Source: an uncultured Clostridia bacterium (lineage in GTDB: Bacteria; Bacillota; Clostridia; Oscillospirales; Acutalibacteraceae). Taken from it: DNA of 64,000 bases. The position numbers and the translations under genes are program-made. Below, one piece after another: positions 26,684 through 32,815 of this stretch. The notes beneath the pieces were generated by a model, which was given only the letters and a program-made list of their open reading frames with translations, made no database searches and was not told where the DNA came from. Numbering within the stretch: position 1 is the stretch's first letter; every line of letters starts with the position of its first letter. Location: the NCBI GenBank assembly GCA_947628665.1, contig CANRAU010000002.1, positions 1-64,000 on the forward strand. Reading direction: 5' to 3'.

Positions 26684-29098
26684 ATGGATTACAACGAATT
26701 TTTATCCCTGCGCCGACAGATCATAGAAACCGAATTCAAGCGAATGAATGCCATGCAGAAAAAAGCGGTCTTTCAAGTCGATGGGCCGCTTTTAATTCTG
26801 GCAGGCGCAGGCAGTGGAAAAACGACGGTACTGGTCAACCGTATCGCCAATTTAATGAAATTCGGCGACGCTTACAACAGCGACTATGCCGAGCGCACTC
26901 CGGATGATGCCGATCTTACGGCTATGCGCGCATATTTGGCGGGGGACAGAAGCGTTTATCCCCAAATTGCGGATGTGCTTTCGGTGCGCGCGCCGAAGCC
27001 CTGGCAGATTTTGGCGATCACCTTTACCAACAAGGCTGCAAATGAGCTGAAAGAGCGGCTCGGCACGATGCTCGGCGAGGACGCGAATGACATTTGGGCA
27101 AGCACGTTTCATGCCTGCTGTGTACGCATTATGCGGCGTTTTGCGGATCGACTCGGCTTTACGAGCCGTTTTACGATTTACGACACGGACGACAGCCGAC
27201 GCGTCATGAAGGAATGCCAGCGGCTTTTGGGAATCGAGGATCGCTTTTTGCCGCATAAAACGATTTTGGCCGAGATCAGCCGTGCAAAGGATTCGCTGAT
27301 CTCTCCCGAAGCCTTCCTCAAAGAAGCGGGGCAGGATATCCGTCTGCAAAAAATCGGCGAATGTTATCAAAAATATCAACAGCTTTTAGCCAATGCGGAC
27401 GCCATGGATTTTGACGATATCCTTTTCCACACCGTTCGTCTTTTTGAAGAAAATCCCGATGTTCTCGAGCATTATCAGCAGCAGTTTCACTATATCATGG
27501 TCGATGAGTATCAGGACACCAACCATGCGCAGTATAAGCTGACTGCCATGCTTGCCGACGGTTACCGCAACATTTGCGTGGTCGGCGACGACGACCAAAG
27601 CATTTACCGTTTTCGCGGCGCGACCATTGAAAATATTCTGCTTTTTGAAACGCGCTACCCGAACGCGACGCTCATCCGATTGGAGCAGAATTACCGTTCG
27701 ACGCAAAGTATTTTGGACGCGGCCAACGCGGTCATTCAAAACAACAGCCAACGCAAGGGCAAGAATTTGTGGACGGCGAACGGCACGGGTGAAAAAATCG
27801 AGCTGGAGACCGCCGAGGATGAGACCGCCGAGGCAAACTATATCGCCGAGCAGATCATGAACTTCGTGGCGCGCGGACGTCGGTTCGGCGACCATGCCGT
27901 TTTGTACCGTATGAACGCGATGTCAGGCCCCATTGAGCGTGCGCTCGTGAAAAACGCGATCCCGTACCGTATGATCGGCGGGCATAAATTCTATGACCGC
28001 ATGGAGATCAAGGACGCGCTTGCGTATTTGTCCGTTGTCAACAATCCCGCCGACAAGATCCGTTTGCAGCGCATCATCAACGTGCCCAAACGCGGTATCG
28101 GTGAAACCTCCGTGCGGCACGCGAATGAAATCGCTGATCTGCTGGGCGTTTCGCTGTTCGAGGTATTCAAAACCGCCGACGAATACGACGTGCTGCGTCG
28201 ATCTGCTTCCAAGCTGCGGGAATTTGCGGATATGATCACGCGCATCGCCGAAGCCGCAGAGGACGCGCCGTTGGCGGATACGCTCGGCCGTATTTTGCAG
28301 GAAACGGCGTATGTGGAGTATCTGCGCACAACAGAGCCTGAAAAATTGGAGGATCGTGTCAACAACCTCAATGAGCTAACCGCGACGCTTTTGCGCTTTT
28401 CCGAGGAAAACCCCGAGGGTACGCTCAACGATTATCTAGAGGAAGTCGCGCTGCTGACCGATATAGACAATTACAACGCCGATACCGACGCCGTCGTGCT
28501 GATGACCCTGCACGCGGCAAAGGGTTTGGAATTCCCCGTCGTGTTTATCCCAGGGCTAGAGGAGGGCGTTTTTCCCGGGCAGCAGAGTATGTATATCGAA
28601 TCCGAAGTCGAGGAGGAGCGCAGGCTCGCCTATGTCGGTATCACGCGTGCAAAAGAGAAGCTCTATTTGACGCACGCAAAGTCCCGCATGATCTACGGCT
28701 CGACCAATTATTACAGACCCTCTCGCTTTGTGACGGAAATACCCGAAAATCTTCTGGAAATGCACCGGAGCTTCGGTTTCCAAACGCGTTTGGATTCCGG
28801 TTTCCGTTCGCGCGGTACATCTGCTCCCGCTATGGGCGCGCACGCATTTGGGGAGACTTCGTCGGCGGAAGCGAAGGCACGGCGCGGTTTCTCCGATCCC
28901 GCCGCATCGAAAGCTGCCGGAAAGGGTTCCCTGCCGCAATTCAATCCCGGCGATACGGTAGAGCATAAAGCGTTCGGCGTGGGCGTGGTCTCCTCCGTCC
29001 GTCCCATGGGAAACGACTGCCTTTTGGAGATCGCGTTCCAAAAGGTCGGCACCAAAAAGCTCATGGCGCGTATGGCCAATTTGAAAAAGCTGACATAA
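26684..29098 (+). CDS. pcrA: ATP-dependent DNA helicase PcrA/UvrD
   Basis: A superfamily 1A 3'-5' helicase of 804 residues acting in repair and replication restart. Motif I is GAGSGKTT (41-48), motif Ia ITFTNKAANEL, motif II VDEYQDTN, motif III GDDDQSIYRFRGA, motif IV LEQNYRS, motif V TLHAAKGLEFP and motif VI YVGITRAK. An insertion after motif I (around PDDADLTAMRAYLAGD) is longer than in Bacillus PcrA. The C-terminal region ends in a Tudor-like segment (GDTVEHKAFGVGVV), as in PcrA. No ligA follows, unlike the common pcrA-ligA order. Confidence 0.95.
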   Translation: MDYNEFLSLRRQIIETEFKRMNAMQKKAVFQVDGPLLILAGAGSGKTTVLVNRIANLMKFGDAYNSDYAERTPDDADLTAMRAYLAGDRSVYPQIADVLSVRAPKPWQILAITFTNKAANELKERLGTMLGEDANDIWASTFHACCVRIMRRFADRLGFTSRFTIYDTDDSRRVMKECQRLLGIEDRFLPHKTILAEISRAKDSLISPEAFLKEAGQDIRLQKIGECYQKYQQLLANADAMDFDDILFHTVRLFEENPDVLEHYQQQFHYIMVDEYQDTNHAQYKLTAMLADGYRNICVVGDDDQSIYRFRGATIENILLFETRYPNATLIRLEQNYRSTQSILDAANAVIQNNSQRKGKNLWTANGTGEKIELETAEDETAEANYIAEQIMNFVARGRRFGDHAVLYRMNAMSGPIERALVKNAIPYRMIGGHKFYDRMEIKDALAYLSVVNNPADKIRLQRIINVPKRGIGETSVRHANEIADLLGVSLFEVFKTADEYDVLRRSASKLREFADMITRIAEAAEDAPLADTLGRILQETAYVEYLRTTEPEKLEDRVNNLNELTATLLRFSEENPEGTLNDYLEEVALLTDIDNYNADTDAVVLMTLHAAKGLEFPVVFIPGLEEGVFPGQQSMYIESEVEEERRLAYVGITRAKEKLYLTHAKSRMIYGSTNYYRPSRFVTEIPENLLEMHRSFGFQTRLDSGFRSRGTSAPAMGAHAFGETSSAEAKARRGFSDPAASKAAGKGSLPQFNPGDTVEHKAFGVGVVSSVRPMGNDCLLEIAFQKVGTKKLMARMANLKKLT

Positions 29099-29116: not shown

Positions 29117-29758
29117 ATGAAAGAACAAACACAGGCAGAAATTACGAAAAAGGGAAATCCGCGCAAACCACAGGGAGACGCGGGTCGCCTGATGCTTTGC
29201 CGCATGAATCAAAGTCACGCGCCGATGACCGATTGGGCGCTCGGCTTTGCTGATTTTCGGCAGGACGATACGGTGCTGGATATTGGCTGCGGCGGGGGCG
29301 CGGCGCTTCGCCGACTGTCCGAAAAAATGGCGCACGGCGTCCTTTACGGCGTGGATTATTCGGATGTATCCGTCGCTTTGGCCAAGGAGAACAATGCCGA
29401 GGACATCAAAAGCGGCAAAATGCACATTTTGGAGGCTTCCGTGGAAAGTCTACCCTTTGCGGACGCTGCCTTTGACAAGATCATCACCGTGGAGAGCTTT
29501 TATTTTTGGCCGAGTCCTGCTGAAAATCTTCGGGAAGTCCTGCGCGTTTTGAAGCCGAACGGCGTTTTTCTGCTGATCGCGGAGATTTACCGGAAAAACG
29601 GGCTGTCCAAAGAGACATTGCAGACCGTCGAGCAGTATCAGCTTTGCAATCCGACCACGGATGAATTTGAAACCATGTTCCGAAACGCGGGATTTGCCGA
29701 GGTGCGTATCCATAAAAAAGACGGCACGGATTGGATCTGCGTGCAAGGCGTAAAGTAG
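29117..29758 (+). CDS. Class I SAM-dependent methyltransferase
   Basis: A 213-residue methyltransferase of the Methyltransf_11 type. VLDIGCGGG is the SAM-binding motif I, followed by YGVDYSDVSV and EASVESLPFADAAFDK. The N-terminal segment with GRLMLCRMNQSHAPMTDWAL is shared with a Clostridia group of small-molecule or quinone-type methyltransferases. The substrate is not evident. It begins 18 bases after pcrA and may be cotranscribed with it. Confidence 0.8.
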   Translation: MKEQTQAEITKKGNPRKPQGDAGRLMLCRMNQSHAPMTDWALGFADFRQDDTVLDIGCGGGAALRRLSEKMAHGVLYGVDYSDVSVALAKENNAEDIKSGKMHILEASVESLPFADAAFDKIITVESFYFWPSPAENLREVLRVLKPNGVFLLIAEIYRKNGLSKETLQTVEQYQLCNPTTDEFETMFRNAGFAEVRIHKKDGTDWICVQGVK

Positions 29759-29904
29759 ATCGAAACGCAGAACCGTCCGCAAAATAAAAAGCACAGCGCA
29801 TGATACAAGCCTGTATAGCGGGTTTTTGTACGCTTTGCATGCAGGTAATGTTACAATAGCGCCGTACCTACAGCCCCGCCGGCGGAAGTAATGAGGAAAA
29901 ACGG

Positions 29905-30192
29905 ATGCACAAGATTTTCGGAATCAGGGAAAACGTCGCATACCGAACGAGAAAAGGCGCGTATTTGATCGCCGTAAAAGGGAATACCGTCGGCGTGGTT
30001 CAAACGCCGAAGGGCTATTTCCTTTTGGGCGGCGGTATGGAATACGGGGAAACGGATGAAAGCTGTATCATTCGAGAATGCATGGAAGAAACGGGGTACG
30101 CCGTTTGCATAAAAAAGCGGCTGTGTTCTGCCGAAGCCTATGAAATGCACCCGAAATTAGGCTATTTTCATCCGATACAAACGTATTTATAG
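29905..30192 (+). pseudogene. Nudix hydrolase, 5' part (cut by inversion)
   Basis: Codes for the first 94 residues of a Nudix hydrolase, then one foreign codon and a stop. The Nudix box is complete: GGMEYGETDESC followed by IIRECMEETGY fits GX5EX7REUXEEXGU. The product stops right after HPIQTY, where a beta strand and the C-terminal helix should follow. That missing part lies on the opposite strand at 30413-30264. Rejoined at 30186/30413 the reading frame continues through TYYLGELTEK to a natural stop, giving 143 residues, a normal length. As it stands the product lacks the C-terminal helix and is probably inactive. Confidence 0.9.
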
Positions 30193-30254
30193 CAATGCGC
30201 ACAGCCCTCGCTGCATTTCACGCAGCCGTGCCACGGATTCCAAATATCATGCAT
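30187..30254 (-). pseudogene. DUF5131 protein, 5' part (inverted)
   Basis: The minus strand from ATG 30254 reads MHDIWNPWHGCVKCSEGC then AHCY, which is the typical start of DUF5131 (phage Gp37/Gp68-like) proteins with the cysteine cluster C-x2-C-x3-C-x2-C. The frame is cut after 22 codons plus two bases at 30187. The two bases are completed by A30414 on the other side of the inverted segment. Before inversion this ATG lay 9 bases after the Nudix stop, so the two genes formed an operon. Confidence 0.88.
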
Positions 30255-30263
30255 TTTCTCGTC

Positions 30264-30413
30264 CTATCTTTTCAATAGACCCTCGATTTGTTCCAACGCC
30301 CAATTTTGCATTTCCAAATGCATTTTCCCCTTGAGCTCTGCATACGGCAGCCACACGAGCGTATGGTCTTTTTCGGTTGGGGCTCGGCGTTTTTCGGTCA
30401 ATTCCCCCAAATA
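30264..30413 (-). pseudogene. Nudix hydrolase, 3' part (inverted)
   Basis: The minus strand from 30413 codes for 49 residues and a TAG at 30266-30264: YLGELTEKRRAPTEKDHTLV, then WLPYAEL and a C-terminal helix ending in LKR. This is the expected end of the Nudix protein whose 5' part is at 29905. It has no start codon or ribosome site of its own. Confidence 0.88.
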
Positions 30414-31221
30414 ATACTTCCTTGACCGCGCGCGGGAGCGAAGCGGCGACGAGATTTACAAAACGAAATCGGGCTTTACATATCCTATCCAAAAGAAAAG
30501 AGACGGCAGTTATAAAATCCAAAGCGGTGAAATGATCCGCGTTTGCATGACGTCGGATTTCTTTTTGGAGGAGGCGGACGCCTGGCGCGGGGAAGCGTGG
30601 GAACTTATGCGCGAGCGTTCGGACGTCATCTTTTTTCTGCTGACCAAACGTCCGCAAAGGGTGGCGGATTGTCTGCCGGAGGATTGGGGCGACGGGTGGG
30701 AAAACATCTTTTTCAACGTCACCTGCGAGAACCAGCGGCGAACCGACGAGCGCGTGCCGATTTTGCTCGACTTGCCGTTTCGGCACAAGGGCATTATGTG
30801 CGCGCCTTTTATCGGCGCGGTCAGCCTTGAAAAATATCTCGCTTCGGGGCAGATCGAACAGGTCGTTTGCGGCGGCGAGAATTACGACGGCGCAAGGCCA
30901 TGCAATTTTGATTGGGTGAAAAATCTGCATGCGGAATGCGCGGCACACAATGTTTCCTTTTGCTTTATGGAAACGGGAACGGTTTTCCTCAAGGACGGGA
31001 AACGCTACCGCTTGCTGAATAAGCAGATTCAAAGCGAAATGGCGTTTAAATCGGGAATGCAGTATGTCGGGAAGCCGATCAAATGGAAGCTGACGGATCA
31101 CTTCGGCCTGCCGATCCCGAAAGCGGATTTGTATGTGCCGCACTACCGCGACAGATGCGCGCAATGCGGCAGCAGACCGATCTGCAACGGTTGCTCCGAC
31201 TGCGGCAAATGCGGCGATTAA
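30414..31221 (+). pseudogene. DUF5131 protein, 3' part (lost its start by inversion)
   Basis: Open from the right edge of the inverted segment to TAA. It reads KYFLDRARERSGDEIYKTKS and continues through IRVCMTSDFFLEEADAWR, FFLLTKRPQR, NVTCENQ, GPI-like segments and CGGENYDGARPC, all typical of DUF5131, ending in a Cys-rich tail (CAQCGSRPICNGCSDCGKCG). With the 22 inverted codons the protein is 291 residues, a usual size. ATG 30532 could restart translation but would give 229 residues without the N-terminal cysteine cluster. The family function is unknown. Confidence 0.85.
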
Positions 31222-31278
31222 ATCGTGCGCAAAATCGTTTTGGCTCGGCGTTCTCCGAACGAGTAAATATAGATAAGA

Positions 31279-31314
31279 AAAGACCGCGCGAAAGAACTTT
31301 TCGCTGCGGTCTTT
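31279..31314. terminator. Bidirectional terminator between DUF5131 and the ABC operon
   Basis: AAAGACCGC (31279-31287) pairs with GCGGTCTTT (31306-31314), with extra inner pairing CGAAA/TTTTCG. T-rich sequence follows on both sides; the flanking genes converge. Confidence 0.7.
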
Positions 31315-31353
31315 ATAGGTTTTGTGTGTTGCGGGAAAACCTTAGAGCGACAA

Positions 31354-31971
31354 TTACATCTCCCGCTTTTCATAAAGAATGACGGATAAAAACCACGACA
31401 GCGCGTAAAGCAGCAAAGCGCCCGCCACGACGAGCCACATCCCGCCTCCGCTTCCGAAAGACAGGGAAAAGCCGTATTGCACACCTAAAAACGTACTCAT
31501 GCTAAAGGCCAGTGCAATCACGAAGTAGTAAGCAATTCTTGCTTTTTCCGTACCGAACCGAAATACAAGCGGAAGCAACACTGCGGGGGAGAGCAGACCG
31601 ACCGCGAATATCAAACTTGCCATGCCGTAAAAGGATTCCCAGTCCGCACTTCCCTGTATCGCCGCGCGCACGGCATGGGCGGCTATGGCCGGCACTAATG
31701 TGAGAATGATAAGGATAAGCCCGATCAAATATTTTGCGGAAACAAGCTGTGCGCGCGTGTAGGGGAGCGTTCCGCTGTAGATCGTCCATTTTTCCCGCTC
31801 ATCATAGGATTGCAGTGTTACGGGCAGAAGACCGAACAAAATACACGGATAAAACTGAAACAGACTGTTGTCGGAAAAAACGGATGCGGCGGCAAAAATG
31901 ATCATGAGCAGTAAATAAGAGCGGCAATACTTGCAGAGTAAGTAAACATCTTTGCATAACAAACCTTTCAT
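31354..31971 (-). CDS. ABC-2-type transporter permease
   Basis: A 205-residue membrane protein with about six hydrophobic segments (for example around 18-40, 75-100, 118-140 and 150-198). The N-terminal MKGLLCKDVYLL is typical of small ABC2 permeases (ABC2_membrane_5 type) that pair with YtrB-like ATPases. The gene is last in a three-gene minus-strand operon and starts one base after the ATPase gene stop. Cargo unknown; export of an antibiotic or peptide, or envelope stress relief, is usual for such sets. Confidence 0.8.
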   Translation of the reverse strand: MKGLLCKDVYLLCKYCRSYLLLMIIFAAASVFSDNSLFQFYPCILFGLLPVTLQSYDEREKWTIYSGTLPYTRAQLVSAKYLIGLILIILTLVPAIAAHAVRAAIQGSADWESFYGMASLIFAVGLLSPAVLLPLVFRFGTEKARIAYYFVIALAFSMSTFLGVQYGFSLSFGSGGGMWLVVAGALLLYALSWFLSVILYEKREM

Positions 31972-31972
31972 G

Positions 31973-32815
31973 TCAGTTTGCCTCCTTTGCCATAAAAATA
32001 AAGAGCTGTTCGATGTCTATGGGACTTGTCGGCATCCCGTTCGGTACAAAATCTCTTGCGACGATGGCGTCCACACCGTAAGGGGTCGTCTTTTTGCCCT
32101 TTATAGCGGCGGGGGAGATGTCTGCCAAATCCTGAGCCGTGCCGTGTACGATGCAAAACTGCTCTTTCAAGCGGTCTTTTTCTTCAAAAAGCAGGAGCTT
32201 TCCTTTGTGGAGAAAAGCAATGTAATCGCAAATTTTCTCCAAATCGCTGACGATATGGGAGGAGATCAGCACCGCATGGTTTTCGTCTCGGGTAAACTCG
32301 CTGAAAATGTCCGTTACGGAATCCCGCACGATCGGGTCGAGACCCGAAGTGGCTTCATCCAAAATCAACAGCTTGGGGTTATGCGACAACGCCACGGCAA
32401 TGCCCAATTTCATTTTCATACCGCGCGAAAATTCCTTAAATCGCTTGTCGTCGGGGATAGACAGCCGCTTTAAACAGTCGTCATATTTGGCGCTGTCCCA
32501 ATTTCGGAACGTAAGCGCCATGATGCGCCCGACTTGCCGCGCGTTCAGGCATTCCGAAATGCCGATTTCATCGGGTACGACGCCGATGTCCTCTTTGTTC
32601 AGGCGGAGATTTTTTCGATTGTCCCGTCCCAAAATGGTGATCGTGCCGCTGTCACGACGGAGCATATCCAAAATCAGCTTGATCGTGGTGGTTTTGCCTG
32701 CGCCGTTTTCGCCGACAAGTCCCAATATACAGCCCATGGGCAGGGTCAAATCCAAATGATCCAAGGTAAAACCCTTATAGGATTTGCAGAGACCTTTGAT
32801 TTCCAAAGCATACAT
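31973..32815 (-). CDS. ABC transporter ATP-binding protein (YtrB-like)
   Basis: A 280-residue ATPase. Walker A is GENGAGKTT, the signature is FSRGMKMKLGIAVAL (a YtrB/CcmA-type variant of LSGGQ), Walker B is LLILDEATSGLD, and the H-loop lies in AVLISSHIVSDL. It has a C-terminal extension of about 60 residues common in export ATPases. It lies between the GntR regulator (3 bases away) and the permease. Confidence 0.9.
   Translation of the reverse strand: MYALEIKGLCKSYKGFTLDHLDLTLPMGCILGLVGENGAGKTTTIKLILDMLRRDSGTITILGRDNRKNLRLNKEDIGVVPDEIGISECLNARQVGRIMALTFRNWDSAKYDDCLKRLSIPDDKRFKEFSRGMKMKLGIAVALSHNPKLLILDEATSGLDPIVRDSVTDIFSEFTRDENHAVLISSHIVSDLEKICDYIAFLHKGKLLLFEEKDRLKEQFCIVHGTAQDLADISPAAIKGKKTTPYGVDAIVARDFVPNGMPTSPIDIEQLFIFMAKEAN

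Follow-up and report, generated by a model that had tools for sequence, protein, structure and literature searches.

Intragenic invertons, reportedly the subject of work by Chanin et al. in 2024, are said to be the nearest bacterial counterpart of the rearrangement described here. For invertons, the inverted repeats that were located have been grouped by homology, with motifs in 114 of 146 groups and some groups linked to invertases, according to two studies (PMC11892184, PMC11868660). The micro-inversions that separate human and chimpanzee are 17–33 nt long; all 59 of them have inverted repeats at their joints, 28 with repeats of 4–7 nt, and because template switching accounts poorly for many of them, that study proposes microhomology-mediated break-induced replication (PMC8755829). 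In yeast, inversions of the spacer were seen only where arms of >9 bp enclosed a few bases, although one began from a 5-bp arm (PMC8604942). Template-switch mutations at quasipalindromes are reported from Escherichia coli (PMC7202029). In the accessible portions of the literature on microinversion in bacterial genomes and prokaryotes, no description of bacterial micro-inversions of the kind reported below was found, and the accessible literature searched yielded no measurement of the rate at which bacterial genes are inactivated by short-repeat inversions.

The locus lies in a stretch of 64,000 nucleotides (the window) on contig C2, which has 150,888 bases (150.9 kb) and belongs to a 2.0 Mb, 35-contig draft genome that is 99.22% complete. 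A 227-bp micro-inversion at window positions 30187–30413 was found to have cut a Nudix gene and a gene of the DUF5131 family. The features are as follows.

29905–30186, plus strand: N-terminal 94 codons of the Nudix gene (PF00293, 32.0 bits, residues 32–66)
30183–30187, plus strand: left arm of the 5-bp inverted repeat, GTATT
30187–30413, no strand: inverted 227-bp segment; in relatives, each of its two minus-strand pieces is colinear with its partner
30187–30254, minus strand: first 22 codons plus 2 nt of the DUF5131 gene, with the Cys motif (PF07505 profile positions 8–28, 28.1 bits)
30264–30413, minus strand: C-terminal 49 codons plus stop of the Nudix gene (45–54% identity to three homologues over 41–42 residues)
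30413–30417, minus strand: right arm of the 5-bp inverted repeat, AATAC on the plus strand
30415–31221, plus strand: body of the DUF5131 gene, 268 codons plus stop, without a start (PF07505 profile positions 59–220, 97.4 bits)

Most of what the first-pass annotation had proposed for these pieces was reproduced. The last 49 Nudix codons, together with their stop, do lie on the minus strand at 30413–30264, and the first 22 DUF5131 codons, with the Cys cluster and two further nucleotides, at 30254–30187 on that strand; one DUF5131 codon is split across the joint. As had been claimed, re-flipping the segment restores both frames, to 143 (94 + 49) and 291 (22 + 1 + 268) residues, with a 9-bp spacer (30255–30263) between the restored genes. 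The two frames meet at the joints with no base gained or lost, and the 433 sense codons that make up the pieces are all open. Two details were amended. The Nudix piece ends at 30186 as described, but not right after the catalytic box, which we take to be residues 43–65 (read by eye against the Nudix-box consensus), the break falling after residue 94. The DUF5131 body likewise runs to 31221 without a start, but its frame begins at 30415 and not at 30414.

The 5-bp inverted repeat GTATT/AATAC that had been placed at the joints is present at 30183–30187 and 30413–30417. The ends of the segment are ambiguous inside this repeat; as the segment is named here, 4 bp of each arm lie outside it and 1 bp inside, and the arms are separated by a spacer of 225 nt. 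An inverted repeat of at least 5 bp was found for 0.6% of 61,773 segments of 227 bp in the window and for 1.0% of 1,103 local ones. The presence of the repeat at both joints thus exceeds chance, as is expected of a micro-inversion at a short inverted repeat, and this low frequency indicates that the repeat was probably involved in the inversion. The arms showed no imperfect extension, with 14 of 51 flank bases matching against a background of 12.5 of 50 (sd 3.2). Around the corresponding sites of the relatives, none of 79 DUF5131 loci has AATAC and none of three Nudix homologues has GTATT.

As in the human–chimpanzee set, a short segment has been reverse-complemented and carries an inverted repeat at its joints, but unlike the cases of 17–33 nt in primates (PMC8755829), the segment here is 227 bp long, bacterial, and has broken two genes. 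The locus resembles the yeast template-switch cases in that the spacer between repeat arms was inverted inside coding DNA; it differs from them in its 5-bp arms and 225-nt spacer, the yeast arms being >9 bp long and a few bases apart (PMC8604942). With invertons it shares a short inverted segment in a bacterium, whereas in place of the homology-grouped repeats reported in PMC11892184 and PMC11868660 it has five unconserved bases, and a search of its contig for PF00589 and PF00239 recombinases yielded none.

The orientation of the segment was compared with that in relatives by searching the four pieces separately, without re-flipping anything. A contig scan with the DUF5131 body gave 213 relatives, of which the best 80 were kept. 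The N-terminal piece was present in 79 of these best 80 loci, the other (L128) being cut by a contig end, and in 79 of the 79 usable loci (best 80 of 213) it was on the same strand as the body and colinear with it. Exactly 3 nt in register lie between the two in 77 of the 79 loci, corresponding to the codon split by the joint in the window; in L068 and L079 an offset of one base occurs at some point within the initial codons of the body. The minus-strand pieces matched close relatives with E values of about 1e-8 to 1e-14, compared with about 1e-6 for distant DUF5131 genes. In a DNA search of 59 genomes, the DUF5131-start part was matched at 12 places in 11 other genomes, and at all 12 the match was on the strand opposite to that of the DUF5131 body, which is concordant with the earlier judgement that chance is implausible.

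Close Nudix homologues were found in three other genomes of the 59. The N-terminal part had 59–64% identity over 94 residues to these three genus homologues, and in each of them (G035, L131/L137; G024, L138/L177; G003, L139/L176) the C-terminal piece directly follows the N-terminal one on the same strand, with no base between them. The homologue in G003 has a small gap in the later C-terminal piece, away from the joint. Among these outgroups, 79 of 79 DUF5131 loci and three of three Nudix homologues show the ancestral order, of which the segment in the window is the reverse complement, and the flipped state was observed in none of the relatives examined. As the pieces are colinear in the relatives, the window carries, on the sequence comparison, the derived arrangement for each gene. 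A single inversion of 30187–30413 explains both, and one 227-bp inversion is supported as the simplest arrangement fitting the relatives; that one event had cut both genes, as originally proposed, was thus upheld by the two sets of homologues.

The N-terminal Nudix part scored 32.0 bits with PF00293 (NUDIX) against a cut-off of 21.1; together with the Nudix box, this assigns the gene, here a broken copy, to the Nudix hydrolases. Its present frame is open from 29905 to a stop ending at 30192 (95 aa). The C-terminal part alone gave no Pfam match. A weak match of the Nudix piece to PDC-S07 was obtained with PADLOC.

The DUF5131 gene was assigned to its family from a body scoring above the PF07505 cut-off together with the N-terminal Cys motif, the two parts being on opposite strands here; the minus-strand 22-mer alone, at 28.1 bits, was just below the cut-off of 28.9. 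The first in-frame start of an open reading frame in the body is at 30532 (229 aa). Relatives of the body were up to 82% identical. It was matched in 24 of the 59 genomes, that of the window included, mostly at 41–57% identity. The relatives from the contig scan were for the most part gut Clostridia assembled from metagenomes, alongside some isolates, Faecalibacterium among them. To judge from these relatives the lineage is Clostridia-like, but the DUF5131 gene is mobile and so a weak guide. No significant match to the body was found among solved structures.

A number of further observations were made on this family. The body (30415–31218) matches the PADLOC candidate-defence models PDC-M30B and PDC-M41B. 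Relatives were also found on 218 plasmid and 119 phage records, nearly all at <60% identity. The genes preceding DUF5131 in relatives vary, the commonest being a divergent SIR2-family gene. Such a gene, or part of one, lies at most 150 nt upstream on the same strand in 29 of the 79 loci (L055:4941–5807 and 28 more among L051–L126), the gap often being 4 nt, and within about 2 kb in four more loci; some of the loci behind this count are cut by contig ends, and L062 is a remnant. The two SIR2-family genes tested with PF02146 scored 22.1 and 29.4 bits (cut-off 24). The recurrent SIR2 pairing possibly links DUF5131 to NAD or ADP-ribose chemistry.

A Nudix–DUF5131 pair standing side by side, which had been suggested as something to look for in relatives, was not found in the loci searched; each gene is intact elsewhere. 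A conserved Nudix–DUF5131 operon was considered and rejected, since in the best 80 loci, a good many of which are truncated at a contig end, the sole match to this Nudix protein was weak and partial and lay about 2 kb from DUF5131, in L093. The two genes of G035 are found on separate contigs. Upstream of the pair, the UvrD/PcrA-like helicase at 26684–29098 has eight relatives at 75–81% identity, and in these the helicase at 26684 and two upstream genes are conserved together. In the stretches that follow the helicase in the eight relatives, no match was found to the methyltransferase, Nudix, DUF5131 and transporter-permease genes; for the ABC-ATPase, matches at <35% identity were left out of the comparison. 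Window positions 29117–32815, following the helicase, thus form an accessory stretch. A scan for promoters and terminators gave counts no higher than in shuffled sequences.

Both the Nudix and the DUF5131 gene are accessory, because the DUF5131 body occurs in 24 of the 59 genomes and close Nudix homologues in three others of the 59. Decay of DUF5131 was also seen elsewhere, with a stop within the aligned body in 4 of 79 loci and a one-base offset in 2 of 79, one locus being common to the two counts. A DUF5131 relic representing an independent loss was observed in the genus member G031 (contig C3, L132:7249–7585); the first 22 codons and body residues 183–266 are kept, and about 180 codons between them are missing.

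The inversion is well supported in the assembly; a chance mutation of recent date, which may still be polymorphic, is the most likely account of it. We consider it quite probable that a recent microhomology-mediated 227-bp micro-inversion, at a 5-bp inverted microhomology, disrupted a two-gene Nudix–DUF5131 unit, a reading that does not depend on whether the mutation has been fixed or is still polymorphic. That relatives carry each gene unflipped makes a recent chance mutation more likely than a switch. As all 433 codons are open, neutral divergence since the event is bounded (95% upper bound) at 5.4% without indels and at 1.6% with one indel per ten substitutions. The event is thus recent, and its age probably does not exceed that of variation within a species. 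A reversible element would equally be expected to have intact frames.

As to mechanism, a DNA end reading GTATT may have paired, at the second arm, with the complementary sequence of the opposite strand; the segment would then have been copied backwards, with a return at the same repeat, by template switch or by microhomology-mediated break-induced replication. A double cut followed by microhomology-directed rejoining would give the same outcome. Given arms of 5 bp at a distance of 225 nt, a simple template switch seems no more likely than the microhomology-mediated route or double-cut rejoining. Arms and spacer of this size fall outside the cases in PMC8755829 and PMC8604942, which counts against a microhomology-mediated micro-inversion. 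The event would have shortened the Nudix protein to 95 residues, with its last third gone, and deprived the DUF5131 protein of its Cys-bearing N-terminus, so that both proteins are probably non-functional. As both genes are accessory, their loss would be tolerated.

The first-pass annotation had left a fixed mutation, a switch, a sub-population and an assembly error as alternatives. An ordinary inversion present in only part of the population, whose path was taken by the assembler, would be a special case of the micro-inversion reading; it is compatible with a recent event and with a 35-contig draft, and it is a possibility that we hold tentatively. A reversible inversion (inverton or phase switch) silencing both genes together, with the assembly holding the off state, would account for an inversion that is clean at both ends and for undecayed frames, and invertons are common in gut bacteria (PMC11892184, PMC11868660). 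The genome also holds four PF00589 recombinases (two on C7 and one each on C22 and C23) and one of PF00239 (C4). None of either family, the two that were searched for, was found on the 150.9-kb contig C2, however, and the arms are only 5 bp long, lack an imperfect extension and are absent from the equivalent sites of 79 of 79 DUF5131 and three of three Nudix relatives, none of the relatives examined being in the flipped state. Neither long or conserved repeats nor a nearby recombinase of these families, common with invertons and not required, was thus found. The unconserved arms and the lack of PF00589 or PF00239 on C2 argue against an inherited switch; a conserved one is disfavoured on these grounds, and a switch is on the whole unlikely. 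A reversible two-gene off-switch working with only 5-bp arms, by an unlinked recombinase or at a fragile replication site, is very unlikely; if true, one flip would silence a nucleotide hydrolase and a DUF5131 protein together.

An artefact of assembly or library, such as chimeric reads or strain mixing, might be suspected in a 35-contig draft. A clean inversion, however, demands that two artefact joints coincide with one 5-bp repeat. Assemblers use words much longer than 5 bp, and chimeric reads usually have one fold-back joint. Furthermore, no other gene-breaking case was found in 1.26 Mb compared with G003 (simulated sensitivity 41/107 and 64/132), and we regard an artefact as decidedly unlikely. 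It could also be supposed that the new arrangement is functional, with the truncated frames or new antisense open reading frames being used, given that the plus-strand frames are open (95 aa, and 229 aa from 30532). Against this, the Nudix protein has lost its last third and DUF5131 the N-terminal Cys motif that is present in 79 of 79 usable loci, and the same order was seen in no relative examined; this explanation is highly improbable.

The recent micro-inversion is a good example of an already known kind of event, and offers a clean, outgroup-polarised bacterial case in which one event broke two genes and left a short repeat signature. Gene callers would report such inversions as truncated genes, and a piecewise opposite-strand search could measure how frequently bacterial genes are inactivated by short-repeat inversions. 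In a survey of this type, the 1,235 proteins predicted in 1.23 Mb of the G003 genome were compared with 1.264 Mb of the window's genome; 554 had a homologue at ≥45% identity, and 140 of these were searched locally for opposite-strand pieces. No second gene-breaking inversion was found among the 140 proteins searched locally, at a sensitivity of 38–48%, the known event being the sole candidate. In simulations, the local search recovered 10, 27, 41 and 90 of 107 inversions of 100, 150, 227 and 500 bp, respectively, and 64 of 132 in a second sample at 227 bp. Given a sensitivity of 41/107 and 64/132, one or two more inversions may have escaped detection.

In the reverse direction, 520 proteins were used and 181 of them searched locally; a single weak candidate emerged, which DNA comparison showed to be a real whole-gene flip. 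It comprises about 330 bp outside the window, at C2 82954–83285 (L179:18954–19285), which in G003 lie on the other strand between colinear flanks. The stretch holds a whole gene for an alpha/beta-type spore protein (SASP; PF00269, 104.1 bits), beside a spoIIID-like gene. Two groups of the genus differ in this respect, G003 and G024 being flipped relative to G000 (the window's genome), G015, G018, G019, G011 and G013; the order of the window's genome is matched almost throughout by G015, G018 and G019, and in pieces on the same strand by G011 and G013. As this flip is shared by G003 and G024, short inversions do become fixed in the genus, the SASP gene being left unbroken there.
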